62,603 nucleotides of DNA from Oceanobacter sp. (GTDB lineage Bacteria; Pseudomonadota; Gammaproteobacteria; Pseudomonadales; Oceanobacteraceae): contig NVWL01000021.1 of the NCBI GenBank assembly GCA_002733645.1, positions 1 through 62,603 of the forward strand, given 5' to 3'. Positions 2,064 through 22,459 of this stretch are shown piece by piece (the stretch's first letter is position 1; each line of letters opens with the position of its first letter). The translations under genes were made by a program, and so were the position numbers. The notes under the pieces were generated by a model. That model saw only the letters and a program-made list of their open reading frames with translations. It did not search any database and was not told the DNA's origin.

Positions 2064-2074
2064 GCTAGCAAATA

Positions 2075-2644
2075 TTGAGAAATGGAAGAATATTGAAAAT
2101 TAGAACGAGAGATCAACTTGTAGATTTCGTAAACCACGGTCACAAAGTGAAATACGTCTTTTTCTGGGGGCATCAAGAAAAAGGAAGTCAAGTCTCAAAG
2201 AGTAGCTTTAGCCAGTGGTATGACTGCACATTTGAAGATGACGGGAATAAGTTTATTTCTGCTGAGCACTACATGATGTACCACAAAGCTAAGCTATTTG
2301 GTGATGGTAAGGCATGTGAGAAAGTACTCCTTGCAAGTAATCCGGGTGAAGCAAAAGCAATCGGAAGAGAAGTTCTTGGTTTTAACCAAAAAATCTGGGA
2401 TGAGAAGCGATTTGAAATTGTGGTGAATGCCAATTTCGCTAAGTTTTCACAAAATTCAGAACTCCAAGAGTTCTTGCTCAATACTGGAAACCGAGTCTTA
2501 GTCGAGGCCAGTCCAGTAGATAAAATATGGGGTATTGGACTGGCGCAAGATAATCCAGCATCAGAGAATCCAAATGCATGGAAAGGTCTCAATCTGTTGG
2601 GTTTTGCACTCATGGAGGTCAGAGATCAACTTTCAAATCAATGA
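2075..2644 (+). CDS. NADAR family protein (DUF1768, RibX/YbiA-like), cassette 2
   Basis: The NADAR fold covers the whole protein: the YVFFWGH opening, FSQWY, an AEHYMMYHKA helix, W-D-E-K-R, the FSQN turn, and the closing block with EASPVDKIWGIGL and NAWKGLNLLGFALMEVRD. Family members such as E. coli YbiA and RibX act on early riboflavin intermediates as N-glycosidases; others are predicted or shown to act on ADP-ribose and NAD-derived compounds, including in phage conflicts. Which substrate applies here cannot be told from sequence. No ATG precedes the domain; TTG at 2075 or, with GGAAG in front, TTG at 2093 must be the start. It is a single-gene cassette between attC 1 and attC 2. Confidence 0.9.
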   Translation: MRNGRILKIRTRDQLVDFVNHGHKVKYVFFWGHQEKGSQVSKSSFSQWYDCTFEDDGNKFISAEHYMMYHKAKLFGDGKACEKVLLASNPGEAKAIGREVLGFNQKIWDEKRFEIVVNANFAKFSQNSELQEFLLNTGNRVLVEASPVDKIWGIGLAQDNPASENPNAWKGLNLLGFALMEVRDQLSNQ

Positions 2645-2647
2645 GGC

Positions 2648-2752
2648 GCTTAACAAGTGCCAGCAACCGGACTTGGGTAAACTGTCACCATTCTTGCAGA
2701 AAGAGGCAAAAATGCCGCCAATTCACCCAATCCGTTGTGGCAGGCGTTAGGC
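2648..2752 (+). repeat. attC recombination site 2 (end of cassette 2)
   Basis: The 105-bp site runs from GCTTAAC (2648-2654) to GTTAGGC (2746-2752). The inner arms TGCCAGCAACCGGACTTGG and CCAATCCGTTGTGGCA pair almost completely, with a few unpaired bases, the pattern that sets strand choice by the integrase. The first core is the exact complement of GTTAAGC that opens this cassette at 2057, as required if the cassette can circularise. Confidence 0.92.
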
Positions 2753-2783
2753 TGTCGTAGCCGACTTACTCAAAGGTTAAGAA

Positions 2784-3269
2784 ATGGATTTCAAAATTGA
2801 AGCAACAAACTGTTTAGGTTTTCCTGATTCTGAATTATCAGAATTACTAAATGATGTTTATGTGGGCGAAGGCTACACAGAAGCTGAATTAGCAGAATCG
2901 CTATTTGATGCTGCTGCTATTCGTTCAAGGGGACGAATTATCACAGCCTCTAATACTGAAAATCAGCGCTTAGCGGGATTAGTTATCATGGTTCCACCAA
3001 CATCTAACGCAAGAAAGCTAGCAAAAGAAGATGAGGTAGAAGTTCACCTTCTTGCTGTTAAGAAAGAGTTTAGAAATAATAACTTAGGTAGTAAATTAGT
3101 TAGTAAACTAATTCTTCAAGCACAGGACGAGGGCTATAAAAGAATAATTCTTTGGACGCAAGACTCCATGAAAGCGGCTCAAAATCTATATGAAAAATTA
3201 GGGTTTATCCATGAGTCAAATTTTATAGCTAATGGGCGTGATTTCTATCTGTACCATCGAACATTATAA
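2784..3269 (+). CDS. GNAT family N-acetyltransferase, cassette 3
   Basis: At 161 residues this has the length of a single GNAT domain. The acetyl-CoA-binding motif A is seen as VEVHLLAVKKEFRNNNLGSK (about residues 90-109), followed by the helix of motif B with AAQNLYEKLGF near 130-141. Such enzymes move acetyl from acetyl-CoA to an amine; the substrate cannot be predicted. GNAT genes are among the commonest cargo in chromosomal integrons. ATG at 2784 follows AAGGTTAAGAA, a modest ribosome site, and the gene lies 32 bases inside its cassette, with attC 3 immediately after its stop codon. Confidence 0.88.
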   Translation: MDFKIEATNCLGFPDSELSELLNDVYVGEGYTEAELAESLFDAAAIRSRGRIITASNTENQRLAGLVIMVPPTSNARKLAKEDEVEVHLLAVKKEFRNNNLGSKLVSKLILQAQDEGYKRIILWTQDSMKAAQNLYEKLGFIHESNFIANGRDFYLYHRTL

Positions 3270-3368
3270 GCCTAACAAACAGTTGGTGAACGCCCCTGCG
3301 GGGCTGGGACGGTTAAACTTCGCTCGTTCCTCACTACGTTTCACCGCCCCACAACAAAAGCGTTATAT
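3270..3368 (+). repeat. attC recombination site 3 (end of cassette 3)
   Basis: The 99-bp site starts with GCCTAAC (3270-3276), the exact complement of GTTAGGC that opens cassette 3 at 2746. It ends with GTTATAT (3362-3368), one position off the GTTRRRY consensus. The inner arms GGGGC/GCCCC and GGTTAAAC/GTTTCACC can form the folded stem. Confidence 0.87.
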
Positions 3369-3378
3369 TTTCTAGCCA

Positions 3379-4059
3379 CTACCTGCTCTCTGGCGGGATA
3401 AGCTGCGATATATAACTATCACGATTTATTAAAAACTGGATCAAAAGGGCTGAGTAATCTTCTGAAACCGCTTGCTGAACAGATTTGCGTTGGCTCAATG
3501 CTTTACGCCACAAATCACACTTAGGTAAATGTGCAAATGTGTTCAATTCAGTAAAGCTGTCAAATACCTCAAAATATCTAAAAATGGGTCCGTACACAGC
3601 ATCGATCAGATGAAATTTGTATCCTGAGAAAAATGGTATACCAGAGAGTTCTTTTTCAATAAATTGAAATTTCCTTTGGATTTCAGTATGAAAATTTTGA
3701 AAGCTAACCTTGTCTTTTGCACTGTACAGGTTGGATATGTTGTTCAGTATGGCGGAACCCAGCTCAATCAATGCTCGATGATGCGCTTTCTCAAAACTGT
3801 CTGTTGGGTGCAAGGAATCTGCTGTCTCTTCATCCAAATACTCGCAAATGACAGACGACTCAAACAGGGCGCGGTTATCATCAACAATTAGAACCGGAAC
3901 CTTACCCAACGGTGATTTTTTTTCAAACCATCCCGGTTTATTGGCAAGATCAATATCGGTTCTAGTGTAGTAAATACTCTTTTCTTTCAAAGTGATAATT
4001 GAACGCTGTACATAGGGACACAATGCGTGGCTAACGAGATGAAAATTTTGTGGTTTCAT
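3379..4059 (-). CDS. Glutathione S-transferase family protein, cassette 4
   Basis: The N-terminal half is a thioredoxin-like GST domain: HALCPYVQRS at residues 10-19 supplies the likely active-site cysteine, then GKVPVLIVDD and ESSVICEYLDE (about 52-77), the glutathione-binding segment with its cis-proline and Glu-Ser pair. The second half is the all-helical GST domain. Omega-class or SspA-like bacterial members with a cysteine in this place do thiol transfer or reductive chemistry rather than classical conjugation. It is read in one unit with the DoxX gene upstream (15 bases between them), opposite to the array direction and away from the LysR gene. Its stop is 11 bases inside the cassette. 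Confidence 0.87.
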   Translation of the reverse strand: MKPQNFHLVSHALCPYVQRSIITLKEKSIYYTRTDIDLANKPGWFEKKSPLGKVPVLIVDDNRALFESSVICEYLDEETADSLHPTDSFEKAHHRALIELGSAILNNISNLYSAKDKVSFQNFHTEIQRKFQFIEKELSGIPFFSGYKFHLIDAVYGPIFRYFEVFDSFTELNTFAHLPKCDLWRKALSQRKSVQQAVSEDYSALLIQFLINRDSYISQLIPPESR

Positions 4060-4074
4060 TGCATGGATCTCCTA

Positions 4075-4497
4075 TTAACTGAGTCGTGACTGTTTTGATG
4101 AAACGTAAGTACTAATGGCGTATTTTCCATCTCCCATACCCAGCTGTGCCACTGCCATTATGGTAAGCAGTAGTGGGTATTCCCAGCCTCCTCCTGCGTT
4201 AGTGAAAAGCCATCCGTTTGCAGAGTGGGCCCAGGTAGCGCCGAGTAAAATGGGTATAACGAGTGCAGAAAAAAGTCTTGTTTTGAAACCCAGTAAAAGC
4301 GCCACACCAGCGACGGCTTCAACGGAAAAAACAATATAGGCGAGTGTCTCCGGCAACCCGATTGAACCGAAAAACTGTGCGGTACCAGCCAGGGTAAATA
4401 CGATCAATTTAAGATAAAGGCTATGTGCCACAAGTACGATGCCCAGCGCAGATCTTGAGATAAAGGTGCTGATATCGGGATTGAGTATGCGGTTCAT
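4075..4497 (-). CDS. DoxX family membrane protein, cassette 4
   Basis: The 140-residue protein has four hydrophobic segments (about residues 14-36, 50-70, 75-93 and 105-122) and the DoxX pattern RSALGIVLVAHSLYLKL near the N-terminus, AVEAVAGVALLLGFKTR in the middle, and GGGWEYPLLL. DoxX proteins sit in the inner membrane and are often paired with redox enzymes or detoxification genes; the biochemical role is unsettled. Here it is the first gene of a DoxX-GST unit under a divergent LysR gene, an arrangement common for quinone, aldehyde or electrophile stress responses. The ATG follows GGAGATCACCACC. Confidence 0.88.
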   Translation of the reverse strand: MNRILNPDISTFISRSALGIVLVAHSLYLKLIVFTLAGTAQFFGSIGLPETLAYIVFSVEAVAGVALLLGFKTRLFSALVIPILLGATWAHSANGWLFTNAGGGWEYPLLLTIMAVAQLGMGDGKYAISTYVSSKQSRLS

Positions 4498-4612
4498 GGT
4501 GGTGATCTCCGTTTAGGTTAGTGTCCGTATAGTATGCAATTTGCATTAATGATGGTAAATTGGCAAAATTTGCAAAGCAATATTGCAAATATGCAATATT
4601 TAGGGGGAGCGT
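4498..4612. promoter_or_regulatory. Divergent LysR/DoxX control region with two palindromes
   Basis: Two dyads fit LysR-type operators. ATGCAA-T-TTGCAT lies at 4534-4546, closer to the doxX start. AATATTGC-N6-GCAATATT lies at 4579-4600, just before the LysR ribosome site (AGGGGGAG at 4602-4609). A LysR protein would be expected to bind here, repress its own gene and activate doxX-GST when a ligand is present; that is family knowledge, not shown here. Confidence 0.6.
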
Positions 4613-5482
4613 ATGAATTGGGATTCATTGAAGGTATTTCTGTCGATTGCTCGTTGTGGCTCTTTATCTGGGGCAGCCACGGACCTTGAGGTGAATCACT
4701 CAACCATTTTCAGGCGCTTGAATGCCTTTGAGACAGAAATAGGTGGGCAGCTGTTTGAGCGTGTAAATAATCGCTACGAATTGACAACATTGGGGCATGA
4801 ACTGCTTGACCTTGCACAAAACATTGAGAATTCTTTTGATGGCATAAATCGCCATATTGTTGGTAAAGATATTCAACCCAAAGGGCTAGTCAAGATCACT
4901 GCCCCGAATAATATCGCTTATCGTTACTTGCCTCGTTATATCACCAATTTTAATCTCCATTACCCCGACATTCAGATTGAGTTATTAGTCAGTAATCAAG
5001 AATTCAATATGTCTAATCGTCAAGCTGATATCGCGGTACGATCGACCTCTTCACCAGCAGAGCATTTGATTGGAAGGCAAGTTTGTACTCTCAATTGGAG
5101 CGTATTTGCAAGTAAAGCTTATGAAGATAAGTTTGGCTTGCCTAACAATATAGATGAGTTAGCAAAGCATGTTTTAATTGGTGCTACAGGTGGCATGTGT
5201 CGGTTACCTGCATTCATCTGGCAAGACAAACACTTTGCTGATCAAGTTATAACTCGTTGTGATGATTTAACCGCAATGTCTTACTTTGTCGAGTCGGGTC
5301 AAGGGTTGGCATTTTTACCTGATGATCAATCTCGGCCCGAACTAATAAAACTATTTGCTATCCAAGATAGTCAACCGAGTAATATATGGTTGTTAACACA
5401 TCCTGACTTACGTAATGTAGAAAGAATCAAATTGGTCATGCAATATTTAACAAAGGCCTTTTCGGATGAATGGGCATGCTGA
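4613..5482 (+). CDS. LysR family transcriptional regulator, cassette 4
   Basis: The N-terminal helix-turn-helix covers residues about 15-45, with SGAATDLEVNHSTIFRRLNAFE as the recognition part. It is followed by a linker and a type-2 periplasmic-binding fold that senses the ligand, with the usual VESGQGLAFLPDD near residue 230. The 289-residue length is normal. The ATG is set by the strong AGGGGGAG. It is divergent from doxX-GST and most likely controls it. The whole divergent unit is enclosed by two integron recombination sites, so this cassette carries its own promoters and regulator and would be expressed wherever it inserts. Confidence 0.92.
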   Translation: MNWDSLKVFLSIARCGSLSGAATDLEVNHSTIFRRLNAFETEIGGQLFERVNNRYELTTLGHELLDLAQNIENSFDGINRHIVGKDIQPKGLVKITAPNNIAYRYLPRYITNFNLHYPDIQIELLVSNQEFNMSNRQADIAVRSTSSPAEHLIGRQVCTLNWSVFASKAYEDKFGLPNNIDELAKHVLIGATGGMCRLPAFIWQDKHFADQVITRCDDLTAMSYFVESGQGLAFLPDDQSRPELIKLFAIQDSQPSNIWLLTHPDLRNVERIKLVMQYLTKAFSDEWAC

Positions 5483-5507
5483 ACCATAAGGTAAGTATCG
5501 GAATAAA

Positions 5508-5577
5508 ATATAACAAGGTGCTGCTACGGAAAATTTACTCGCTGGCGCTCCCAAATTTCCGCTGAGCAAAGCAAAAA
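5508..5577 (+). repeat. Decayed attC site 4 (end of cassette 4, end of the array)
   Basis: The left core ATATAAC (5508-5514) is the exact complement of GTTATAT that opens cassette 4 at 3362, and the match extends to AAAATATAAC. The interior closely follows attC 1 (AACAA-GTGCTGC, then CGGA.AAATTT, CGCTCC, AAATTT.CCG). The right core GCGTTA is missing: the sequence runs into GCAAAAAACAAAG. The site has lost its crossover point, so the array ends here and the last cassette should be fixed in place. Confidence 0.72.
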
Positions 5578-5825
5578 ACAAAGACAGTCTTGTTAATAAG
5601 TCTGGTCTAGATAAAATGTAATAAACAATGTAATAAACAAGACAGTCTAGATAAAAAATTACTTCGTTTTTTTCGCATTAAATTTCACCGTTAATATTTT
5701 CCATAGGGGAGTTGGTTCAAGATGTAGGAACCCGCTTGTTTTTGTACGAATAGGCAGTTTTTAGGCGAGGTGGTATCTCAGAGGTTTCTGATGTGAGTTG
5801 TTGCTTTGTAATTGTGTCGGTAAGA
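5578..5825. other. Gene-free junction between integron and chromosome with short repeats
   Basis: GTAATAAACAA occurs twice in tandem around 5618-5640, GTCTAGATAAAA occurs twice (about 5626 and 5645 starts, one copy preceded by GGTCTAG), and AGACAGTCT occurs at about 5582 and 5640. These look like debris of insertion or slippage at the array border. I see no open frame or RNA gene. The region also holds the downstream side of the transposase gene. Confidence 0.5.
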
Positions 5826-6833
5826 TTAAGAAAGCCGTAGTTTACAGGCTTGAATTCCAGCGGTTCGCCTTCGTTCTCGTTGATCATCCCAGAATAGCGA
5901 TATTTTAGATTTTACTTCATCAACGGCACCGACGATGCCTTTAAATTCAGATTCAAAGTTTTGAGTAATGTAGAGCCAGTGCTCAGCGTCTATGCCTAAG
6001 CGATCCATTATTGCGGGTTCGCTTTCTGAAATGGCTCCGCGTTTATTCTCTCTAATTTGACGCCCCGTCCAGTAAACTAAATCTAAGTAGTCAGTAAGCC
6101 TCATAGGAATGCCATCCGGCATATTTTGCTTTGGATTGCCGGCAAAATTGAGCAGCTCAGGCACTTGCTGTTGTGGGTGATTAGGCGAGTAGGCGTCTTT
6201 TGCTTTTTTAGCTCGTTTCTGTATTGAGGTGTGAGCTGAATCTTCAGGTGTTTTGGCCATTGCTGCACGTACAGGGTTTAAATCAACATAAGCCATGCAA
6301 GCGGCGAGCGCTTTCTCGTCGAGTAATGCTTGGGACTTGAAGCGGCCTTCCCAGAAGTGTCCTGTGCAGTTGTCTTCGTCGTTAGCTAATCTTGCAACGG
6401 TTTCGTTGAGGCGGCGCATGTACCAGCTAATGCTTATTAAGCGATCACGCCATAGTTTAATTATGTCTTCCAACATGGCTACTTGAGCTTCAGAAAGCTT
6501 TTCTCCGCGCTCAAATTTTTGAGTGATAAGGCTGCCTTTATAAAGCTGATGCCAGCGCTGAACGACGTCTAAGTCTGTTAATTCACGGGCTTTAGATTGG
6601 TTGACGTGAAGTACGATGTGGAAGTGATTAGACATCACGGCATAGGCGGCAATATCAATACAAAAGACTTTGGCTTGCTCTATGAGTAGATGCTCAATCC
6701 AGCCTCGTCGGTGTTCAAAACTTCTACCTTCTGAATCGCGCCCGCATAAAAAAGCTCGACGTACGCAGCGAGAGACGCAGTGGTAGTAGGGCGTCGCTTC
6801 GAGCGAGATCAGTTCCTTCCTTGGTTTAGGCAT
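5826..6833 (-). CDS. REP-associated tyrosine (Y1, IS200-type) transposase, RAYT-like
   Basis: The 335-residue protein opens with the PYYHCVSRCVRRAFLCG motif of Y1 transposases and has the metal-binding HUH motif as SNHFHIVLHV (about residues 68-77). HFWEGRFKSQALLDEKALAACMAYVDLNPVRAAM (about 160-193) contains the tyrosine region. This subgroup is single copy, lacks IS ends, and is linked in other genomes to REP palindromes, which it cuts and joins as single strands. Six REP-like palindromes occur in this window, which is consistent but not proof. ATG at 6833 is the start of the conserved domain. It lies directly beside the integron end. Confidence 0.9.
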   Translation of the reverse strand: MPKPRKELISLEATPYYHCVSRCVRRAFLCGRDSEGRSFEHRRGWIEHLLIEQAKVFCIDIAAYAVMSNHFHIVLHVNQSKARELTDLDVVQRWHQLYKGSLITQKFERGEKLSEAQVAMLEDIIKLWRDRLISISWYMRRLNETVARLANDEDNCTGHFWEGRFKSQALLDEKALAACMAYVDLNPVRAAMAKTPEDSAHTSIQKRAKKAKDAYSPNHPQQQVPELLNFAGNPKQNMPDGIPMRLTDYLDLVYWTGRQIRENKRGAISESEPAIMDRLGIDAEHWLYITQNFESEFKGIVGAVDEVKSKISLFWDDQRERRRTAGIQACKLRLS

Positions 6834-6901
6834 ATGTGCCTCCTGATACTTGTTTCTTGGTATTACCGTACAGGAATTGACCTCACTTTAAAATCAGGCA
6901 T

Positions 6902-6947
6902 TATTATTAGAATGATTGTCCTGATATTATTAGAATGACTGTCCTGA
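6902..6947. repeat. Two tandem 23-bp direct repeats
   Basis: Two adjacent copies (6902-6924 and 6925-6947) of a unit starting TATTATTAGAATGA and ending TGTCCTGA differ at one base (ATTG against ACTG). They sit between the divergent transposase and the secreted protein gene at 6990, so they may be a transposase-related relic or a tandem regulator site for either gene. Confidence 0.8.
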
Positions 6948-6989
6948 GATTTCTGAGATTTCCCGAGCTTATTATACAAAGGAAAGTGT

Positions 6990-7724
6990 ATGTCTCGATT
7001 ATTGATGAAAGTTTTAACTGTAATGTTATCTTTGATGCTAGTGCCAAATGTAATGGCAGAGAATAAAGTTGAAGTGCCCTATGAAAAGTTTGATCAAGAC
7101 AAGTTCAGGTCATTCTTGCGTGAGTATCTTTTCAGAAGTTATACGGATGAAAACGGTGTTCATATCGAATCTGTTCTATCTGCGCTGGGTGCTTTATCAG
7201 GTTTTTCGTTACAACAAGGCATTCGGGAAGACTTGATCATTAAAGGTGGCAATGAAGAGGGTAAGGTTTTTACCATTATTGAAACTAAAGATGGTAATAA
7301 ATATTTCTTTGGTTCTATATTTGATGAGCCGTTATACGATACGAGAGAGGGCCAGATTTCGGTATGGTCTCTTGTTGGTGGTGGTGCTCAAAAAGCTGGT
7401 GCTTCAAGTTTACCCGACGTATCTGCTCTAGCTAAAGCAAATGCAAGTGCAATTGGTAATGAAGATTATGGTAATTTAACCGTTCCGCTTATGAATCAAC
7501 CTATAGATCACCCAATAGATGCAATTAAAAAGCATTGGGACTTCACAAAAAAAACTCTCCAAGCTAAGGGGGCAGAGCCTTTGTTTTGGAGCTGGGAAAT
7601 TGCTTTAGTCGCACAAAATATTATTATTGCGGGTAAAAGTGTAATCGACCCTAAGTTAGCCGCTCAAATTGTTATGGAACCTGCTATTTCAATGTCAAAA
7701 ATTGATCCTTCTAAAATAAACTGA
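6990..7724 (+). CDS. Hypothetical secreted protein, 244 aa
   Basis: I recognise no family. A clear signal peptide ends at about residue 23 (hydrophobic VLTVMLSLMLVPNVMA followed by E). The mature part has a segment rich in glycine and alanine (about 130-155) and ends in a hydrophobic helix near residues 198-230. There are no cysteines in the mature part and no catalytic motif I can name. ATG at 6990 follows AAAGGAAAGTGT, a good ribosome site. No operon partner is apparent: the next gene is 197 bases away. Confidence 0.75.
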   Translation: MSRLLMKVLTVMLSLMLVPNVMAENKVEVPYEKFDQDKFRSFLREYLFRSYTDENGVHIESVLSALGALSGFSLQQGIREDLIIKGGNEEGKVFTIIETKDGNKYFFGSIFDEPLYDTREGQISVWSLVGGGAQKAGASSLPDVSALAKANASAIGNEDYGNLTVPLMNQPIDHPIDAIKKHWDFTKKTLQAKGAEPLFWSWEIALVAQNIIIAGKSVIDPKLAAQIVMEPAISMSKIDPSKIN

Positions 7725-7820
7725 TTAGCTATGCGATCTCCTGGTTGAATCTAGTCGGTCGTGTTTAAAAACGAGCCTTTGTATAGATAGACTGAGGCGG
7801 CTATAACTTCTCCTGAGTAT

Positions 7821-7838
7821 TAGTGACTTTAGTCACTA
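7821..7838. promoter_or_regulatory. 18-bp palindrome, copy 1
   Basis: TAGTGACTTTAGTCACTA is a perfect dyad with 7-base arms. It lies 83 bases before the lipoprotein hydrolase start, a position that fits an operator for a TetR- or MarR-like dimer. Its exact reverse complement recurs at 10467-10484. Confidence 0.55.
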
Positions 7839-7921
7839 GTTCGGCACGTGTTCCTTATGCATTATTATTTTTTCTGTGTTAATTCTGGCGTTTTTTAGCT
7901 ATCTGAAATTGACGAGGTCGT

Positions 7922-10063
7922 ATGAATAAAATAATAACAATATCTGCTCTTTCTCTCGCTTTATGTGGCTGCTATTCCAACCCTGAGATGGTTCTAGAGT
8001 TGAATGGTGGTGACGGTGAGTGGCGCTTCTATGATCAAGGTTTTCCTACTAACTTACGCCTGACGGATGATGGCCGACCTGATTTTTCTGGGTTTCCCCA
8101 TCGTTTGTTTTCGCCTTTGGTGTCTCAGTTTTCACGAGAGGCGGAGCGTTATGAGCATATGACGGGGTATGCACCGGATACTTCTGTGTATATTCGGTTT
8201 TCTGGGTCATTTGAGCCTGATGAATTCCCTTTACCGCAATCGCCTGATTATTTTGCCAATACATCTTCACCTATTCAGTTAATTGATATCGATCCTGATT
8301 CTGCATTGCGCGGTACACGTTATCCTATTGATGTGAATTTCCGTTATGAGGAGGATGAGTACCGTCCTGGGTCTTTGTTTGAGGCGGTTCCTGTTGGGCG
8401 TGTGCAGCAAGAAAATACGACGTATGCGCTGATTATTACTCGTGACATTGTTAGTGATTATATTGGTGAATATGCGCCTGACCTTGAAGCTAACCCTGTG
8501 TTAACAGCGTTATTGAAGGGTGAAAATCCGCGCTTTAAAGATTTATTTATCACGTCTAAGAATGCTGAAAAGGCGTTGCAGGTTTACGCGCCTTTGAAAG
8601 CGCAATTAGAACTTGAGGGTATTGATCCTGAGGATCTGATTGCTGCGGTTGTTTGGACGACGGGAGAGGCTTCGAATAAGGCTTTCCAATTGGGGGAGGT
8701 GATGTCTCAATGGGATGTACCGCCTTTGCTGTCTGATTGGGTAATGACTCAAGATATGCCAGAGTTTTGTGTTTTTGAGGCTCAATGGCGTGTACCTGGG
8801 TTTCAAAAAGGGTTATTTCCTTATCCAGCACCAATATTTGGCGGTGATTTTGAATACGACTTAAATGGTGAGCCGATTAGGCAATATTGGCGAGAAACTC
8901 CAGTGGTATTAACGATTCCTAAAACGCCTATGCCGGCTACTGGTTATCCTATGTTGTTATTTCATCATGGAACACATGGGTTGGCTGAGCATGTTTGGTC
9001 TAGAGGCAAGGAGCCTGTTGCTGGTGAAATTAGCACGTACGGCTCGCCCGGACATATTTCTGCTTTGCGAGGCTGGGCCGCTGCTGGTATGGGAGGGCAC
9101 TTTGGTCATGATCAACAAATCGATATCGGGTTATACGATGCCATTTCTGAAATGGTCGGTATCCCAATGAACTTACTGCAATATAATCTTTATAACCCGC
9201 AGGGTTTTAGAGACAACATGCTACAGCAAGTCTCGGAGCGAATTCTATTTCGTCGATTGATTGAGCAGGTGAATATAGATACTTCAGCCTGTGTAGGCAG
9301 CCATCAGGGGGGCTCTTTTTTTAATGGTGATCAAATGGCTCTTATGGGGCAGTCATTGGGGGCATTTACTGCTGCTGCTCAGGTTTCTGTCGACCCTGCG
9401 CCGTTAACGGCGTTTATCGGCACTGGGCCTGGCACTTATAATATGCCTTTTATTTTTCAAAATAAGCAGGACGCTGAAGGTGCTGCTATTGGCAATATTC
9501 TCGAACCTCTTTTCTTTTATACTGAGGTAGACGATATCGTTGAAGATCGTTTTCACCCGGTGTACGCACTGAGCGAACAGCCGAGCGGGCCTTCTAATAC
9601 TTCTTTTATGTTATCTCAGCGAGATCAACAGAACCAAGCAGGCAGGGCACCTTTTCATAGTTTGTTAATTTTTGGCCATGAAGATTATTCGGTGCCTTTT
9701 AGCTCTCAGAAAACGTTAGTGCGTGCGTTAGGTAGTGATATGGCAGGGTCTGAACTAGATGTACCGTCTGAGTTTAGCTTGCTTGATGCAGCAATGGCAG
9801 CAGGAGGAACTGCTATTGATTATCCGGTGAGTGGTAATGGTCAGTTCGGGGAGACGAACGTTTTTGTTCGATATGATGAGGATGATATTAAAACTGGGCA
9901 CCACGTTATGATTCAGTATGAAGCTCCCAAGCATCAGATTGGTTGTATGCTCCAAGATATATCTGCCGGACTAACGCCTGTGATTGTGGAAGGTGTCGCG
10001 ATTGATGGTGATTGTGCGAGTGGCCCGTCATTGATGAAAACCGTTCAACAGGAGCCTTTTTAA
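7922..10063 (+). CDS. Large alpha/beta-hydrolase lipoprotein (esterase or lipase), 713 aa
   Basis: Residues 1-16 are a lipoprotein signal with the lipobox LCGC, so the protein should be lipidated and anchored, probably to the outer membrane. The nucleophile elbow is seen as MGQSLGAF near residue 480, and an HHGTHG block near residue 350 resembles an oxyanion-loop segment. A His-containing FGHEDYSVPF stretch near residue 580 could supply the catalytic histidine or acid region. Fatty-ester hydrolysis outside the cytoplasm is likely; the substrate is unknown. The family resembles uncharacterised Vibrio or Pseudomonas VolA-type lipoproteins, but I am not sure. ATG at 7922 is preceded by GACGAGGTCGT. 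It stands alone, upstream of a deletion scar. Confidence 0.8.
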   Translation: MNKIITISALSLALCGCYSNPEMVLELNGGDGEWRFYDQGFPTNLRLTDDGRPDFSGFPHRLFSPLVSQFSREAERYEHMTGYAPDTSVYIRFSGSFEPDEFPLPQSPDYFANTSSPIQLIDIDPDSALRGTRYPIDVNFRYEEDEYRPGSLFEAVPVGRVQQENTTYALIITRDIVSDYIGEYAPDLEANPVLTALLKGENPRFKDLFITSKNAEKALQVYAPLKAQLELEGIDPEDLIAAVVWTTGEASNKAFQLGEVMSQWDVPPLLSDWVMTQDMPEFCVFEAQWRVPGFQKGLFPYPAPIFGGDFEYDLNGEPIRQYWRETPVVLTIPKTPMPATGYPMLLFHHGTHGLAEHVWSRGKEPVAGEISTYGSPGHISALRGWAAAGMGGHFGHDQQIDIGLYDAISEMVGIPMNLLQYNLYNPQGFRDNMLQQVSERILFRRLIEQVNIDTSACVGSHQGGSFFNGDQMALMGQSLGAFTAAAQVSVDPAPLTAFIGTGPGTYNMPFIFQNKQDAEGAAIGNILEPLFFYTEVDDIVEDRFHPVYALSEQPSGPSNTSFMLSQRDQQNQAGRAPFHSLLIFGHEDYSVPFSSQKTLVRALGSDMAGSELDVPSEFSLLDAAMAAGGTAIDYPVSGNGQFGETNVFVRYDEDDIKTGHHVMIQYEAPKHQIGCMLQDISAGLTPVIVEGVAIDGDCASGPSLMKTVQQEPF

Positions 10064-13774: not shown

Positions 13775-14533
13775 ATGCCTGAGTATATCGAACAAATCGC
13801 CTTGTTTGCGATTGCTGTGATCGCCAATTGGTTTTCTGCCCTGGCCGGTGGCGGTGCTGGCTTGATTCAATTGCCGATCTTGATCTTTATGGGCTTACCC
13901 TTTCCGCTGGCTTTGGCTACGCACAAAATCGCGACAGTGGCCTTGGGAGTGGGTGCGACGGCACGTCATTTAAGAGAAGGGCACCTAGATAAGTTAATTC
14001 TGCTGCTGATTTTCTTGGCAGGTGTGCCGGGAGTGATTCTTGGTGCTTTGTTTATTTTAGATGTACCGGCACGGTCGGCAGAAATTGCACTGGGTATATT
14101 AACCCTGCTCTTGGCTCTGTATTCGATGGTGAAACCTGAACTTGGCTTAACCACTCAGGATAAACACCGTGATCTCGCCGGGTATGTTGTTGGTGGGGCA
14201 GTTTTGTTTTGTATTGGGTTTGCTAATGGTGCGTTATCCGCTGGTTCAGGTTTGTTTGTAACTTTGTGGTTGGTGTATTGGTTTGGGTTGGAATACAAAC
14301 TGGCCGTTGCACAAACCTTAGTGGCGGTTGGTTTAGGTTGGAATGGAGCAGGAGCGATAACGATGGGCGCTGTCGCTGAGGTGCAATGGAGTTGGATTCC
14401 AGCTTTGGTACTTGGCTCTTTACTGGGCGGCTATTTGGGCGCTCAAACCTCAATACAGTCGGGTAATCAGATGATTAAGCGACTGTTTGAGGTGATCACG
14501 TTTGTGGTGGCCATCAAGTTACTGTGGGGATAG
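13775..14533 (+). CDS. TauE/SafE (TSUP) family membrane transporter
   Basis: The 252-residue protein has about eight hydrophobic segments and the family pattern twice: NWFSALAGGGAGLIQLPILIF near the N-terminus and FANGALSAGSGLFVTLWLV in the second half, a two-repeat fold. Members export sulfite, sulfoacetate or other small anions; the substrate here is unknown. I chose ATG at 13775 over TTG at 13742. The last 15 bases overlap the end of the convergent metalloprotease gene. Confidence 0.88.
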   Translation: MPEYIEQIALFAIAVIANWFSALAGGGAGLIQLPILIFMGLPFPLALATHKIATVALGVGATARHLREGHLDKLILLLIFLAGVPGVILGALFILDVPARSAEIALGILTLLLALYSMVKPELGLTTQDKHRDLAGYVVGGAVLFCIGFANGALSAGSGLFVTLWLVYWFGLEYKLAVAQTLVAVGLGWNGAGAITMGAVAEVQWSWIPALVLGSLLGGYLGAQTSIQSGNQMIKRLFEVITFVVAIKLLWG

Positions 14534-17485
14534 TGGCCTTCTCATTGTTGGGATAAGTACCAAGCTCAGCAGTAGCAGCCATAACGCATTACCCGCGCCG
14601 CTGTCTGTGCTGCTGTCACTAACGAGTGTTAGGTTGATGTTTTCTTCCTCAAACGCTGGGTTCAGCGCTATATCAACATCGACGACTTCACTGTGGCTAA
14701 CGGAGAGTGATTCAGGAAGACTGCTGCTGAGTGACGATTCCCATGTGTAGCTCACTTGCGTGTTGCTGATCTTTTCAACGACTGGAGTGGTAGTTGTACC
14801 GTCGTTCAAATGAATCTCAAGCGCGGGTAACTCTGAGTCGAAATCAAATCCTCTGGCATTTATTTGCCCTGCAAGTTGGTACTCGGTGCTGGCTGCAGAC
14901 ATGACGGCGTTAACATCGGTGCCCGTGGCGCTTAAAGTTAAGCTTGTATCATCATAAAGTGTGGCTGACACATTTACTGTTAAAGCTAACTCGGGCACAT
15001 CGAAGGTAATGCTGCCGTCACTGGCGCTGGTGAACTCTGTGGCTAATCCCCACTCAATCATACGGTCATCATCGATAGTGACATCGGCGTCGGCAATGGG
15101 GTTGCCTGATTCATCTTTGATCATCAGAGTAACGCTACGGCGAGCAACATACACCAAATCTAGTGTGGAATCTGGGATGTTGGCTGCACTGGCGGTGATG
15201 GTCGTTGCGGTAGAATCGTTACTGATCAATACCGCCGTTGCCGGGTTGTAGGCTGTTTCTTCATTATTTGCGCTATCGGAAGCATCCACACTGGCAATAG
15301 TTACGCCTTCAGCATTGCTAAAGCTGAGGGACGAGTCGCTACTGAGAAGGATCTCTGTACTCGCTGGTGCGCCTTCAATGATGAGACGTGCGGTGTCGCT
15401 GCCTTCTAGTATCGGGGTAACTGACGTACTAAGGCGCAGAGGACGCTCGACATAGAAGCTCGCACTAGTGCTTAAACCATCCGTTACTACGACGGTGTAG
15501 GTACCAGCAAACGCTCCGTCATCAGGCAGGTTTAAAGCCACACTTGAGCCACTGGCTGTAAGTAAGTCTGATACATCGCTGCCATTAAATTCGGCGGTTA
15601 AGGTGTAATCTCCATCGCCTCCAGTGGGTATTAATGTGATGGTGCTTAATGCGCCTGAGGCGGTATCCCCGTCTGAAATTGAGCTTCCTGCGATGGTAAG
15701 CGTGATTGGATCGACGGTAGCCGGGTCGGTTAAATCTACGGTAAAGGTGGTATTGGCTGTGGCATTTCCGTCATTCACGGTGACGGTAATGCTGGTAGAA
15801 GCAATTGCACTCGTGGTCGATGTGAGCGTTAGCTGGTTGCCGCTAACGCTGGTGGTTACTATGCCTGTGTCTGCTGAAACTGCACTGTAAGTTAGAGAGT
15901 CGCCGTCAATATCGTTACCTGCGAGTGTTATGGTTGTGCTGCTATCGTAGTCAAATTCAACATCGCTAATCGCTGAGATACTTGGGGCATCATTGCTGTT
16001 CTGTACGGTCACACTGAAGGTTTCAGAGTCTGACAGAGAGGCATCCGCCACTTGTACAGTCACCGAGCCGCTGCCGTTGTAATTAGCCGCTGGGGTGAGT
16101 GTGAGCACTGCACCAGAGATGGATGCATTTAGTTGGGCGCTGGCTGAGGTTAGGCTGTAGGTCAGCGAGTCGCTCTCGATATCCGTCGCATTGAGTGTAA
16201 TGTTGACGCTAGTGTCTTCGAGCATAGTTTGTGTGCCGACACCAGTGAGAACTGGGGCATCGTTCACCGCTGTCACAGTGACGGTAAATGTAACGGTGTC
16301 AGTATCAGTACCGTCGCTGACTTGAGCCGTTATTGAGCCGGAGCCATTGTAGTTTGCACTTGGCGCGATAGTGATCGTAGCGCCTGAAATGTTAGCGCCT
16401 AATGATGAGTCTGCACTGGTAATTGAATACGTTAACGGATCACTATTGGCGTCGGTGGCCGATAAGCTTACTGTGGTGGATGCGTCTTCATTGACGGTGA
16501 CATTAGAGATAGCCCCCATTACCGGGGCCGAGTTAGGTATGTTAGCGGCATTATAGTCCCAACCAATATCTTTAAGCAGTTGTTCGGCTAACCCTGGAGT
16601 ATCTAAAAACTCAGTGTATTGAGGTTCCATTAATTCATTAGGTGATAGGGCTGTATCAAAGTGGGAAGCGGTTGATCCGCTTTCATAACTGCTTGGTGCA
16701 TATAACCGGACTTCGCCATTATTAATGCCACTGCTGTAGTTGCTTGCTTCGCCGTTTACTTCACTGCCTCCCCATACTAGGTTGCCATTGCTAGTCATGA
16801 CGCTCGCGCGGGTAGAAATAGCTTGTGCTGTTAAAAATTGGCCACTGCTCGCGTCTTTCATTAGACGGGTGTAGGGATCAAACGCTTCTTCAAATCCATT
16901 AACCGTATTCCAGCCAGCTCCGCTTTGTCCGTTCGATTGTAAGTAGGTAAGAAATCCCATACCGTGCAAAATTTCGTGCAACACCACCGAAAGCAGCGAT
17001 TTACCATTGCCGCTTGGCGCATCAAATCCGTAATACCAGTTAGTGTTGAAGAGGCAGTTATCGTTGTTATCAATGGCGGAATTAAATTGCGCGTTAATCT
17101 CTGCCACACCGGCATCGGCATCAGCGTTGACGGTTTGATTGTAAAGCGCGTGAGGTGTCAGGCTATGTGTAGAGTAATCAAACTCAACCGCAGCAGGGCC
17201 TGCTTGGCCAAGAACGGCGCTGCTGGAGCTACAACTTAATGGATCAAAGGTTGAAGCGACTTTAACAACCGCAGTAATGTCGTAAGTGGCGTTGAGAATA
17301 TCCGCCGCTTCTTGGAATACCGCTAAGCGCTGAGCACCTAACGTGGTCGCGGTGTTACCACCAACGGCACTGACACTGGTGGTGTCGTTAAAGCCTTCAC
17401 CGCCCGAGTCGTTATTTACAATGACAACATCAGCGAATGCGTGACTAGCAGCCGTAAGTAAAAGCACCGAGAATAGGTGTTTCAT
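14519..17485 (-). CDS. Secreted metalloprotease-like protein with cadherin-like repeats and GlyGly-CTERM, copy A
   Basis: Residues 1-19 are a signal peptide. The first 330 residues form a protease-like domain with HEILHGMGF at 170-178 (HExxH zinc site) and SHFDTALSPNELMEP near 290, whose histidine is a candidate third ligand. Two cysteines before the motif (near 85 and 144) may form a disulfide. Then come repeated Ig/cadherin-like modules of about 90 residues with the NDAPVL linker, followed by degenerate beta modules. The tail SGAGNALW, a hydrophobic stretch and arginines matches GlyGly-CTERM, the signal for type II secretion and rhombosortase cleavage. The start ATG overlaps the stop of the upstream gene in TAATG, so translation is coupled. 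A paralogous pair lies upstream. Confidence 0.87.
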   Translation of the reverse strand: MKHLFSVLLLTAASHAFADVVIVNNDSGGEGFNDTTSVSAVGGNTATTLGAQRLAVFQEAADILNATYDITAVVKVASTFDPLSCSSSSAVLGQAGPAAVEFDYSTHSLTPHALYNQTVNADADAGVAEINAQFNSAIDNNDNCLFNTNWYYGFDAPSGNGKSLLSVVLHEILHGMGFLTYLQSNGQSGAGWNTVNGFEEAFDPYTRLMKDASSGQFLTAQAISTRASVMTSNGNLVWGGSEVNGEASNYSSGINNGEVRLYAPSSYESGSTASHFDTALSPNELMEPQYTEFLDTPGLAEQLLKDIGWDYNAANIPNSAPVMGAISNVTVNEDASTTVSLSATDANSDPLTYSITSADSSLGANISGATITIAPSANYNGSGSITAQVSDGTDTDTVTFTVTVTAVNDAPVLTGVGTQTMLEDTSVNITLNATDIESDSLTYSLTSASAQLNASISGAVLTLTPAANYNGSGSVTVQVADASLSDSETFSVTVQNSNDAPSISAISDVEFDYDSSTTITLAGNDIDGDSLTYSAVSADTGIVTTSVSGNQLTLTSTTSAIASTSITVTVNDGNATANTTFTVDLTDPATVDPITLTIAGSSISDGDTASGALSTITLIPTGGDGDYTLTAEFNGSDVSDLLTASGSSVALNLPDDGAFAGTYTVVVTDGLSTSASFYVERPLRLSTSVTPILEGSDTARLIIEGAPASTEILLSSDSSLSFSNAEGVTIASVDASDSANNEETAYNPATAVLISNDSTATTITASAANIPDSTLDLVYVARRSVTLMIKDESGNPIADADVTIDDDRMIEWGLATEFTSASDGSITFDVPELALTVNVSATLYDDTSLTLSATGTDVNAVMSAASTEYQLAGQINARGFDFDSELPALEIHLNDGTTTTPVVEKISNTQVSYTWESSLSSSLPESLSVSHSEVVDVDIALNPAFEEENINLTLVSDSSTDSGAGNALWLLLLSLVLIPTMRRPLSPQ

Positions 17486-17973
17486 TATTTGATCTCCTGA
17501 GTCGGTGTTTTACTCGCCAGAGCTTTGCTGGTTGGAATGTCGAGGGTTCCGATAGGCAGCACTTTACGTTCGACGGTACGATGGCTCCCATCATCATCAA
17601 TCACGGCCATCACAACCGTTGACCACTGATTGCCTGTGTAGGCGGTTGCGTTGCCATTACCGTGAATAACCAAAGGGATATCTGAAGCAGGGATACGCTG
17701 AGACTCAACGTATTGCTCTAATTCGTGTGGGAGCGAATCATCATTATCTTGGTTTGACCTGTGAGCTGAATGATCATGTGCTTGGCTCTGAGTAACCATC
17801 TGAGACGATGATGTTGATAAGGCTTCAGTTTCTTCAACGGGGAGCTGGCTCTGACTATCCGATGTAACAAAACCGTTGCGAGGCGATTCGGGGGCAGGAT
17901 TCGGCCCGGCAATCCATAAGCCGACATAGATGAGGAGTGCAACAGTGACGAGAGTGCTGGCGAGTCGTTTCAA
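17485..17973 (-). CDS. Small membrane-anchored partner protein, copy A (unknown family)
   Basis: One transmembrane helix (about residues 5-25) anchors the 162-residue protein with the rest outside. A low-complexity linker with several histidines is followed by a conserved domain starting at ELEQYVESQRIPASDI. It continues through HGNGNATAYTGNQWSTVVM and a DDDGSHRTVERK stretch, and shares this order with the paralog at 22028. The function is unknown; an inner-membrane chaperone, inhibitor or secretion partner for the coupled protease is a reasonable guess. I prefer TTG at 17973 over GTG at 18030 because it gives the same N-terminal layout as the paralog and follows TTAGGTACG. Confidence 0.75.
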   Translation of the reverse strand: MKRLASTLVTVALLIYVGLWIAGPNPAPESPRNGFVTSDSQSQLPVEETEALSTSSSQMVTQSQAHDHSAHRSNQDNDDSLPHELEQYVESQRIPASDIPLVIHGNGNATAYTGNQWSTVVMAVIDDDGSHRTVERKVLPIGTLDIPTSKALASKTPTQEIK

Positions 17974-18137
17974 GGTTTCGTACCTAACAAAAAATTCTGT
18001 TATTACAGAGTAGCCCTCGTAAAAATGCACACCAGTGCCTTTGCGTTACCTCGTGTTAAGTTAGCCGGTGACTTTGTGTAAATGCTGTTCCATCGGCGGG
18101 GATGTCATTGGGTAATAGATACAATTGGGGGGTAGAA

Positions 18138-18169
18138 GCAACAAAACCCGCCTAAGCGGGTTTTGTTGC
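18138..18169 (-). terminator. Rho-independent terminator after protease copy B
   Basis: A perfect 14-bp stem GCAACAAAACCCGC / GCGGGTTTTGTTGC with loop CTAA and flanking A and T runs. It lies 26 bases beyond the protease copy B stop and separates the two copies of the module into two transcripts. Confidence 0.9.
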
Positions 18170-18194
18170 AAAGCTAAATTTGAATTTAGCAGAG

Positions 18195-21100
18195 TTAGGC
18201 GCGTTTTACCTTGAGGCGCTTTCTACGAAGTAAGGCAATTGCTGTGATAAGTAACCAAGCTGCGTTACCGCCGCCGCTTGAGCCTGAACCGTTGTCGGTG
18301 CCTGTATCCGTACCAGAATCACCATTATCAGGTGCTTCTTCCACCACAGTTTTGATCAGCTCAGCGTCGATTGATTCAGAGCCCAGGCTGCTATCCAGAG
18401 TAATGGTTAAATCATCCGCGGCACTGTGGCTGAATGTGATTGAAGTTGGCGAAGCGGCGCTTAATTCTGTTAACCAACGGAAGGTTAATACCCCAGAGGA
18501 ATCCAACTCACTTGAATCCGGGGTGGTGGTATTACCGTTCGAAAGATTTAATGTGATTTCAGGAGCCTCACTACCAAACTCGAAGTCACTCGCTGTGACA
18601 GAGCCATTTAACTGGTAGAAGCCATCGGCTAACTCTAATACCACACTGCGTTCAGTTTCTAGAGCATCAGATTCAATGACTTGGGAGTTAAAGCCAGTGG
18701 CGTCGATTCTTAACTCAAGAGCGGTGCTAGGTAGCTGCAGCTCATAGTTACCATTGATAAATGAATCCGAATTGCCATCGTAGTTTGCATTAATACCCCA
18801 AGCAGCAATACGTTCGTCATTAATGGTTACAGAGGAGTCTTCAACTACTTCGCCATCGTTATCCACGATGTTTAACACTAGTTCACGAAGGGAGACCACG
18901 GTCACATCTAACTGGTTTGGCGAAGCGCCCAGCAAACTTGTGTTGATACTGAAAGTGCCCTCATTTAAAGCATCAATAAATGCGAGCGCAGAAGTAAAGC
19001 TTCCTTCCTCAGTACCTTCTAGCGAGCTAACCGTCGTTGTGGCGTTGCCGTTGTTATCAACAAACGCAATGTCTGACTCTGACAAAGAAATATCGCTACC
19101 CACAGGCGCGCCTTCTATGGTGAGCTGGGCTAGGCGAGTATTGGCCAAAATCGGCGAAACACTCGTTGTTAAGAGAACGGGGCGCTGCACCGTAAACTGA
19201 AATGATTCCGTATTGCTGTGAGTATCATCCAAGGTGAAGAAATAACTGCCAGCAAACGCACCACTTGCAGGAACGGTCAGAGAGCGCTCACTTCCTGTGC
19301 CTAGTAATAGATCACTGCGGCTTGAGCCGTTGTAATTCACGCTGAAGTCATACGTGAAATCTCCGCCAGCGGCAGCGAGATCAAGGTTCTCTAAATGGGT
19401 AAGTACTAAGGTATCACCATTAGAAATAGCATTGCCGTTGATGTTAACACTTAGAGGGACGAGGTCATCACCTCCAGTAACCGTAGCCGTGAAACTGGTG
19501 CTATCTGATAGTTCACCGTCTGTTGCAGTCACGGTAATGAGCGCAGAACCATTGAAAGTATCCGAGGCTGTTAAAATCAGAGTCGACCCTGTGGCTGTGG
19601 CGATCATTAAAGATTCATCATCACTGGTCGCAGCGAAAGTAATGTCATCGCCGTCGACGTCGGAGGCCGTCAGGTTGACGCTTAGACCTGACGCGATATC
19701 AAAGGTTGTGCTGCCGATGGCGCTTATTTCTGGCGCATCGTTAATAGGTGTAATGATGAGCTCTAAGTTGGCAGTATCGGTCAGTGCACCATCCGATACG
19801 GTCACAGTAATGGTGTGTGTGTCATTATTATCGGCATTAGGAGTAACAATTAACAACGGACCAACCAAGGCGATCTGTAGCTCACTACTGTCTGAAACCG
19901 CACTGTAGGTTAAATCGCTGTTATCGATATCCGTAGCCGAGAGAGCGAAGCGAAGGGTGGTGTCTTCGTTAAACGTTGCGCTATTAGGAATATCAAGGAT
20001 AGGTGCATCATTTACCCCGTTCACCGTGAATACAAAGGTATCCGTTGCGGTGGTTGTACCGTCATTGACAGTGACGCTGATATTGGCGGCTCCGGAGAAA
20101 TTATTTGCTGGTGTTAGAGTGAGTTGATTCCCAGTGACGGCAACGTTTATGTCTGTTGTAGAGCTTGTGGCTGAGTAAGTTAAAACATCTTCATCTACGT
20201 CTGCAGCAATTAATGATAAATTCAGTGTTGTGTCTTCATTTATCGTTTGGTTGGCGATACTCTCGATGGTTGGGGCGTCATTTTGTCCAATGACATTAAC
20301 GTTCAAGGTTTCAGAATCTGACAGTAAAGCGTCGCTGACTGATATCACTATCTCACCGACGCCGTTGTAGTTCGCGTCTGGTGTAATTGTCAGTAAACTC
20401 CCGTCAATGACGGCGTTTAACTCAGTATTAGTGGTTTCGAGTGTGAACGTTAATTCGTCGTTATCGGCATCACTGGCACTGAGTGTAACCTGCAAGGACG
20501 CATCTTCATTCAAGGTTAGGTTGTTAATGGCATTGAGAACAGGCGCGTCGCCTACGTTAATTACCGTGACGGTAATGGTTTCACTGTCTGAAAACTCACC
20601 ATCACTAACATGGATCGTGATGTCGCCATTACCGTAAAAATTAGCGGCAGGTGTGAAGGTTAGCTCGCTGCCATTAATACTCGCCCCGATCTCCGCAGAA
20701 GCGTTATTAATTGAGTACGTTAGGTTAGTAGTATCTATATCCGTGGCGTTAAGTGTAATCGTTTTCGAGGTATCTTCCGGTAGAACTTGATTGCCGATTG
20801 CGCTCAATGTGGGAGCGTCATTAACTGGATTTACAGTGACTGTCACTACTTCATTATCGACTGACTCACCGTCAGAGACTTGAACTGTAATCGTTCCTTC
20901 GCCGTTGAAGTTACTAATAGGCGTTAGTGTAAGTCTGGTGCCGTCGAGAACCGCGCCGATGTTGCTGTCGACATTAGCTAGCGAATATACAAGTGGGTCG
21001 CCATTGAGGTCGCTGCCAGAAAGATCGACTGCTAGCGATGAATCCTCATCAAGGGCGAGTGTGCCGATAGCGTCGAGTACCGGGGCGTAATTCGGAAGGT

Positions 21101-22031
21101 TGTCGGGGTTTGGTTGCCAGCCAATGTCGAGTAAAACTTCAAGCGCTAAACCCAACTCCACACCTGCATTAGAAGAAAATGGTTCCATGATTTCATCAGG
21201 TGATAATGATGTACTAAAATGTGATGTTGAAGAACCTGCTTCAAAGGGCGATGGTGCGTAGAATTGTACTTTCCCGTTTTTTGTTCCCTCAGAATAATTA
21301 GAAGCTTTAGAGTTGACGAGCTCTCCACTCCAAACTAAATCTGTTTCAGAATTAAGTGTTAAAAGGCGTTGACCTCTTGTCATTTCATTTAGGGTTTTTC
21401 CTGTGATCGCATTACTTAGCTGTTTAGAATATGGAGTAAAGCCTTCGGTGCCATCGTTCTATTCATAAGGTGCAAAAGCTTGTCTGCCGAGATAAGACGT
21501 GAAGCCCATGCCATGTATAATTTCATGCAAAGCGGTTGAGAGAAATGATTCATCACTGCCTGATTCATTATCAAATCCGTAATACCAGTTTTTATTATTT
21601 AAACAGGAATTATTGTTGTCGATGCTGCTATTAAACTGTGTGATTATTTCTGATCCATTCCCATTGTCATCATAGCCTTGGAGTTGATTTTGTAGTGCAT
21701 AAGGAATAATAGACTGTGAGTCGTGATCAAGAAATGAAGCTGAGGGTGAGGCTTGTCCTAATACTGCAGAATTACTTGTGCATGTTAGTGGATCAAAGGT
21801 TGTGGAAACATGGACTGTTTGTTGAATATCGAAAGAACTATTAATTATTTCTGCAGCTTTGTTAAGTACATTTAGGCGCTGTTCCCCTAAAGTGGTTCCT
21901 AGATTTCCAGCAATGGGGGCTACAGGAGTAGTATCATTTAAGCCTTCATTCGGATCGTCATCATTCACAATGGTGATATTTGCATTAGAGCTACTTGCTA
22001 CGAATAGTAGTAAAGAAATTATTTTTTTCAT
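18195..22031 (-). pseudogene. Secreted metalloprotease-like protein with cadherin-like repeats and GlyGly-CTERM, copy B, interrupted by one in-frame stop
   Basis: This is the paralog of copy A. Residues 1-190 (start 22031) include a signal peptide and HEIIHGMGF at 169-177, then a TAG stops translation at 21459-21461. The same frame stays open with no shift and continues NDGTEGFTPYSKQL, later SHFSTSLSPDEIMEP, about eight NDAP-type cadherin-like repeats and the GlyGly-CTERM tail GGGNAAWLL plus basic end. Read through, it would be about 1278 residues. Either a recent nonsense mutation, a sequencing error, or readthrough explains it. The uninterrupted downstream 1050 codons show that decay, if real, is recent. 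The start overlaps the upstream gene by ATGA. Confidence 0.82.
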
Positions 22032-22459
22032 TTTTTAATTACCAATGTCCCTTTAGGTGTGATTTGGCGCTCAACCCTTCGACTTGTGCCGTCTTCATCT
22101 ATGACCATCATCATAACGGTTGACCACTGGTCGCCGTGGTAGGCAGTGGCTGTGCCTTCACCATGATTAACGACTTTAATTTCGCTGGCTGGTTTGCGTC
22201 TTGATTCTATGTACTCTTCTAATTCTGGAGGTAGCTCGTTGTCATGATCATTGTGATGATCGTGCGAGTGCGCTGTTGATGTGCCTTTGTTCAGAACCGT
22301 ATCGTAGTGATGAACACTTGGCTGATTCGCGGGCACTGCTTTGGATTCTGTGACTCCAGGGGAGTTAAGAGGAATAGAAATAAGTTGATTCTTATTCAGC
22401 GTCCAAACGGCTCCTAGTACGATCACTGTTATCACAGTGACAGGGATTATTTTACGCAA
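22028..22459 (-). CDS. Small membrane-anchored partner protein, copy B, with His-rich linker
   Basis: The 143-residue protein has one N-terminal transmembrane helix (residues 5-22) and an exposed linker with a dense histidine-aspartate run (HSHDHHNDHDNE, about 75-86) likely to bind metal. A domain shared with copy A follows: ELEEYIESRRKPASEI, HGEGTATAYHGDQWSTVMM, then DEDGTSRRVERQ. The start is TTG at 22459 with an ideal GGAGGA seven bases ahead. Its stop overlaps the protease ATG as ATGA. A metal-binding linker coupled to a zinc-protease-like gene suggests a metal-delivery or holding role; this is inference. Confidence 0.78.
   Translation of the reverse strand: MRKIIPVTVITVIVLGAVWTLNKNQLISIPLNSPGVTESKAVPANQPSVHHYDTVLNKGTSTAHSHDHHNDHDNELPPELEEYIESRRKPASEIKVVNHGEGTATAYHGDQWSTVMMMVIDEDGTSRRVERQITPKGTLVIKK

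Follow-up and report, generated by a model that had tools for sequence, protein, structure and literature searches.

On the minus strand of an Oceanobacter sp. contig, a gene for a small membrane-anchored protein (hereafter the partner) lies directly ahead of a gene for a secreted protease, and this pair occurs twice in the window, by which we mean the whole stretch of 62,603 nucleotides that was analysed (source assembly of 3.88 Mb in 86 contigs). The locus raises two questions, namely whether the two genes belong together beyond this contig, and what a small anchored protein could be doing for a protease that leaves the cell.

Two partner-protease pairs in the window

All features described here lie on the minus strand. 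Partner 2 (22028..22459, 143 aa) starts with a TTG codon that follows a GGAGG sequence, and has homologues in relatives. Its AF2 model contains a membrane helix at residues 8-25 (22385..22438), and its conserved core of 61 aa (22055..22237, alignment A5) is modelled as a helix and four strands. For partner 1 (17485..17973, with its 61-aa core at 17554..17736, alignment A5), the mechanical ORF opens at a GTG at 18030, and the TTG at 17973 is the best start by comparison with the partner starts of relatives. Each partner is made up of one N-terminal helix (predicted for partner 2), a linker and the 61-residue core.

Protease 1 is an open frame of 988 aa (14519..17485) with a signal peptide, a predicted metzincin-like catalytic domain, cadherin-like repeats and a tripartite-like tail. 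The HEILH motif is found at residues 170-174 (16964..16978), and H170, E171 and H174, together with H275 (16661..16663, in SHFD) and the M286 that follows, are invariant in the 22 rows of alignment A4, making them candidates for the HExxH, the third His and the Met-turn. His275 is thus a candidate third zinc ligand. In copy 2, the N-terminal piece (21459..22031) carries the signal peptide and an HEIIH motif (21513..21527) and ends in an in-frame TAG. A downstream ORF in the same frame (18195..21383) continues with the remainder of the catalytic domain, roughly six cadherin-like repeats and a Gly/Ser-rich, hydrophobic and basic tail.

The frames of partner and protease overlap in both pairs, by ATGA in copy 2 (22031-22028) and by TAATG in copy 1 (17487-17483). 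The two partners share 44% identity, and over 182 aa the N-terminal parts of the two proteases share 53% (E 6e-57), so the two pairs are the result of a duplication rather than of chance. The original prediction, which had proposed a tandemly duplicated two-gene order with translational overlaps, TTG-started partners with one membrane helix, and proteases with HExxH and cadherin-like repeats (matched by Big_9 and Cadherin_5), was borne out in all of these respects. It had, however, treated the copy-2 protease as one protein and overlooked the TAG (codon 21459-21461), which falls 13 residues after HEIIHGMGF. A profile search of the genomes counted a single TAG in this frame, and partner 2 is intact beside the interrupted protease.

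The relatives in the same genus carry the names Thalassolituus and Oleibacter. A tree of the proteases puts protease 2 in one group with G030a, G031a and G032 (97/94), nested in a wider clade (100/97) to which protease 1, G034, G030b and G031b also belong. A tree of the partners unites partner 2 (97/94) with those of G030, G031, G032 and G027, which have a single partner each. Based on these groupings, the module was probably duplicated inside Thalassolituus. G030 and G031 would have kept the type 2 partner alone with both proteases, and the window both partners with protease 2 interrupted.

Elsewhere in the window, positions 1-8000 are AT-richer (GC 0.39-0.42, compared with 0.44-0.48 in the remainder), and a frame in that stretch (5826-6833) resembles a REP-associated transposase by eye.

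Association of partner and protease in other genomes

Searching with the two window partners alone gave matches in 21 of 44 family genomes, including their own, and in all 20 further loci that were found in this way a protease followed directly after the partner. In one of these loci (G027) the contig stops within the protease gene, ahead of HExxH, and in another (G039) the protease is interrupted. The frames of the pair overlap in 11 of the 20 loci and are separated by 8-17 nt in five and by 148-153 nt in three, counted from mechanical starts. Ahead of the pair, 18 of the 20 loci have an HrpB-like helicase gene, and behind it 17 have a TauE/SafE-like gene, the other three being cut by contig ends (gene names by eye). 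The interrupted G039 protease (L170) also holds a TAG, located at another place than in protease 2 of the window. In 11 loci (L031-L041) a gene of about 800 aa with a receiver-like C-terminal domain, a hybrid histidine kinase by eye, lies between the protease and the TauE/SafE-like gene; these loci belong to genera g3, g7 and g8, and none to the genus of the window.

Beyond the family, a search of 369 class genomes with a profile built from 22 partners added two genomes, G405 and G529. In both, the protease is located directly after the partner, and the pair lies between rimI-like and prfC-like genes (by eye). The independently built NF047450 model, run over 185 class genomes at E 0.001, gave four matches, three of them above the cut-off, and all four were directly upstream of a protease; none of the 14 control genomes matched. 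These three counts (20/20, 2/2 and 4/4) are the ones that are free of circularity.

Starting from the other gene, a profile of 22 catalytic domains detected the protease in 31 of 44 family, 30 of 293 order and 17 of 369 class genomes, and when the neighbouring DNA was read, a small N-anchored protein adjoined most of the protease genes. Of 88 distinct protease genes tallied, a partner adjoins 67; by group, these are 31 of 38 from the family, 24 of 29 from the remainder of the order and 12 of 21 from the class. In 53 cases the partner has the core type of the window, and in 14 it has the DPxTG type described below. Of the remaining genes, four stand second in a tandem and have no separate partner, and four lie at contig ends. 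For the other 13 (G008, G060 C25, G075, G165, G201 C20, G280 at 613 kb, G363, two in G399, two in G602, G615 and G689), no partner was detected by profile within the stretch read. Several of these 13 are only remotely related, and a small frame ahead of the protease in G602 and G615 is partner-like by eye only.

The broad partner profile matched 29 of 293 order genomes, including two weak matches in long frames. With these two removed, the protease is beside the partner in 24 of 27 genomes, and in the other three (G180, G225 and G244) the contig breaks off at the partner, although in G244 the beginning of a protease can still be seen. As profile A5 was built from partners already beside proteases, most of its adjacent matches are so by construction; the informative result is that, besides the two weak ones, no match was found away from proteases or contig ends. 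Nine of the DPxTG-type partners are likewise members of profile A6, and five that were held out (L092, L103, L114, L118 and L131) match it at E 3.7e-5 or better.

The arrangement of the pair varies. The partner lies about 0.9 kb ahead of the protease in G012, and in G010 and G022 the order is flipped, so that the partner follows the protease and overlaps it. Two whole pairs in tandem, as in the window, are found in G006 and G009, a single partner between two proteases in G160, and one partner ahead of two proteases in G030 and G031. The sites differ as well, with the hrpB-TauE site in the family, the rimI-prfC site in G405 and G529, and znu loci in G010 and G022. In the latter two genomes, which represent two genera, the flipped pair (L218 and L219) adjoins znuB, znuC and znuA, and in G022 also zur (best NCBIfam matches, some below their cut-offs), which hints at zinc-dependent expression of the pair in this branch.

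As the pairing recurs in many other bacteria, the partner is very probably a dedicated helper of an apparently unstudied protease family. The strict coupling from which the original prediction had concluded this was upheld by the 20 loci, by 24 of the 27 order genomes and by the four NF047450 matches. A partner found mostly away from proteases, or belonging to an unrelated family, which it had named as speaking against the claim, was also looked for, and the claim was not refuted.

Relationships of the protease and the partner

Judged from its motifs, the protease is metzincin-like and near NF038122 (metallo_LGF). In metzincins, the consensus HExxHxxGxxH/D is contiguous. This contiguous form was not found in the protease, in which the third His comes about 100 residues after HExxH, a layout that we take to be leishmanolysin-like. 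By predicted fold, the protease is likened to matrixins among the metzincins. No Pfam peptidase model matched the protease family. The NF038122 model was matched by the five protease sequences tried (as a catalytic piece or a short protein) and by the N-terminal piece of copy 2, with scores of 24-45 bits (24.6 for the catalytic piece of copy 1 and 30.0 for the copy-2 piece) that fall below its cut-off of 80, so the protease is not a member; for the full-length copy 1 protease, NF038122 was not among the matches listed.

The protease is also predicted to lack a cis propeptide, since, across the 22 rows of A4, the first invariant Gly already occurs at residue 30-44, and the earliest strand in the model (20-24) comes right after the signal peptide. 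The models of both proteins are of low to middling confidence (pLDDT 58.8 for partner 2 and 60 for the protease). In one genome (G608, L113:214-2556, minus strand), a copper P-type ATPase, represented by its C-terminal half, shares one frame of 781 aa with a catalytic protease domain; this is either a real fusion or an assembly error.

For the partner, the conserved part is the 61-residue core, which contains no conserved His or Cys in alignment A5. In addition to the helix at 8-25, the model of partner 2 contains a low-confidence stretch (22-66), another helix (78-86) and, within 95-133, four strands. Related partners have a hydrophobic N-terminus, and the distance from residue 29 to the core ranges from 40 to 94 aa across partners. 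The partners of distant pairs are shorter and have a DPxTGxF motif where the window partners have an LP..L..YIE..R.PAS region, and a similar end, GG..hDLxGRF. Some of them resemble lipoproteins or plain secreted proteins by eye, so anchoring in the inner membrane is not universal.

The window partners gave no meaningful Pfam or NCBIfam match, in line with the original description of an otherwise unknown domain. That description does not extend to the distant partners, which match NF047450 (post-PEP-CTERM-1): its cut-off of 28 bits is exceeded by L112 (32.2), L113 (32.0) and L126 (47.7), as well as by G468, G373 and G495, with G353 below it. Among 39 core sequences, 13 matched this model with an E of 1 or lower, 8.9e-6 being the best, and a profile comparison joins the core type and the DPxTG type with 95% probability (E 3.7e-8, 35 columns). 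As NF047450 matched neither window partner (the core of partner 1 was also tried), by the curated model the window partners are not members of this family, and their sequences place them as its divergent kin.

What the partner could do for the protease

The reading that we favour, and to which we would give about an even chance, is that the partner is a membrane-tethered periplasmic folding or holding chaperone, in effect a propeptide supplied in trans, for a secreted metzincin-like zinc metalloprotease. It is ranked first, and the inhibitor discussed below second, because the layout resembles that of Lif and CpaB, because the first two features that define chaperones of the type II secretion system (T2SS) are present, and because the host has GspD. 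The two overlapping genes would be translated together, and the partner would be held in the inner membrane by its one predicted helix. Through a flexible linker, the 61-residue core would then have access to the protease emerging from Sec, and in those family members whose linker is His-rich, the linker may also assist in loading zinc. The window would present this module in duplicated form, with its second protease interrupted.

The low to middling confidence of both models and the 13 of 88 proteases without a detected partner speak against the chaperone. The four tandem second copies lack a partner of their own, and one partner may serve two proteases. CpaB and Lif chains are present in the PDB, and when profiles A5 and A2 were compared with PDB sequences, no chain of either was among the matches with an E of 10 or less.

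A less probable possibility, though one to be taken seriously, is that the partner is a membrane-bound inhibitor, which would shield the periplasm until the protease exits the cell and would give no help in folding. The missing cis propeptide would leave nothing in the enzyme itself to silence it, the partner gene usually comes first and often overlaps, and in G030 and G031 one partner precedes two proteases, all of which would suit an inhibitor. However, a chaperone and an inhibitor predict the identical gene arrangement, and no evidence separating the two was found: with an E of 0.24, the weak match of a single distant partner to PepSY does not count as evidence for an inhibitor, and the intact partner 2 beside the broken protease 2 is neutral, as partner 2 may serve protease 1.

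It is unlikely that the partner is primarily a zinc donor loading the protease through a His-rich linker. At least three His within 12 linker residues were found in 20 of 45 partners, and the znu and zur genes beside the pair in G010 and G022 would fit such a role. The cluster is missing in the other 25 partners, including those of G405 and G529, and what is conserved is the core, with its lack of conserved His or Cys. The original prediction was right about the conserved domain, but the His-bearing linker belongs to only part of the family, and a metal donor as the general role did not hold; because of this distribution, zinc donation is at best an extra.

Still less likely is a sorting or anchoring factor acting on the C-terminal signal of the protease. 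The NCBIfam name post-PEP-CTERM, the tripartite-like and GlyGly-like tails of family proteases, and the presence of rhombosortase in relatives point in this direction. However, the GlyGly-CTERM model TIGR03501, which the original prediction would have led one to expect in both proteases, gave no match to the C-terminal 60 aa of protease 1 or protease 2 (cut-off 15.5 bits); it matches the second protease of a relative (L024) at 17.0 bits. Neither rhombosortase (TIGR03902) nor any other rhomboid was found in the assembly of the window (G000). Since between one and six rhomboids were found in each of the 41 further family genomes searched, this absence may stem from the assembly or from stretches withheld from the search. 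In the Thalassolituus relatives G031, G037 and G004, rhombosortase is present (128-139 bits, cut-off 84), in G031 beside a gene whose product has a GlyGly-like tail, and it is a separate gene at another place than the pair. Paired proteases elsewhere end in dockerin/TSP3-like segments (above the Pfam cut-offs in G683 and just below them in G405) or in RTX repeats (G353), which argues against GlyGly-CTERM sorting as part of the coupling. As the pairing is independent of the C-terminal segment, the partner is more likely to be coupled with the catalytic domain than with the tail. Thalassolituus relatives (L209 and L214, and L211 by eye) also encode a second rhomboid, a divergent rhombosortase-like form that scores 71 and 67 bits against the cut-off of 84; its gene lies beside one for a PAP2-like membrane protein (by eye).

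Inherited synteny alone, with two unrelated genes staying together by chance, is very improbable: one site is mostly kept within the family, between the hrpB-like and TauE/SafE-like genes, but the pair is also found at different sites, the order can be flipped, whole pairs are found in tandem in other genera, and the partners are kin across families.

A wider proposal is one that we put forward tentatively. The core and DPxTG proteins could form one superfamily of trans propeptides, membrane-tethered or lipidated, that fold, silence and perhaps zinc-load metzincin-like proteases across Gammaproteobacteria, whether the protease ends in a surface tail, a dockerin-like segment or an RTX segment and whatever its destination. 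The NF047450 family, so far only a domain model here, would gain a probable client and be tied to a protease family without a Pfam peptidase match. The idea of a secreted protease whose propeptide is a separate anchored protein could be tested in marine bacteria.

The original prediction had held that no described system has this pairing. A class of membrane-anchored T2SS chaperones, encoded adjacent to the gene of the client protease or lipase, has in fact been described (PMC4713064), and the NF047450 model already exists. As set out in the excerpts available from that source, such a chaperone is defined by four features: its gene adjoins that of the client, it has a transmembrane domain at its N-terminus, its C-terminal region faces the periplasm, and the client needs it for secretion. 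The gene lies beside that of a secreted client in both window pairs and in the 20 family loci. One N-terminal transmembrane helix is present in the model of partner 2 (8-25) and is matched by the hydrophobic N-termini of its relatives, and the C-terminal part would face the periplasm. GspD, the T2SS subunit that was searched for, is present in the host (TIGR02517, 511.8 bits, cut-off 351.35).

According to the available parts of PMC4713064 and PMC6299215, CpaB of Acinetobacter is the membrane-bound T2SS chaperone of the metallopeptidase CpaA. The partner resembles it in having an N-terminal transmembrane helix and a C-terminal domain (periplasmic in CpaB, predicted to be so in the partner), a gene beside that of a secreted metalloprotease, and one dedicated client. 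In contrast, CpaB is encoded downstream of its client and has a reported SRPBCC domain, whereas the core of the partner has 61 aa modelled as a helix and four strands. Our results suggest that, besides CpaB, there is a further protease-specific, membrane-tethered helper. With Lif, LipB and LipH, as portrayed in portions of PMC4713064 and PMC13381987, the partner shares a membrane helix, an unstructured linker (predicted) and an adjacent gene; Lif linkers are commonly 30-55 aa (PMC13381987). The clients of these proteins are exported by the T2SS, the system indicated by GspD in the host of the partner. They differ from the partner in that their clients are lipases and their chaperoning domain is alpha-helical, whereas beta strands dominate the model of the partner core.
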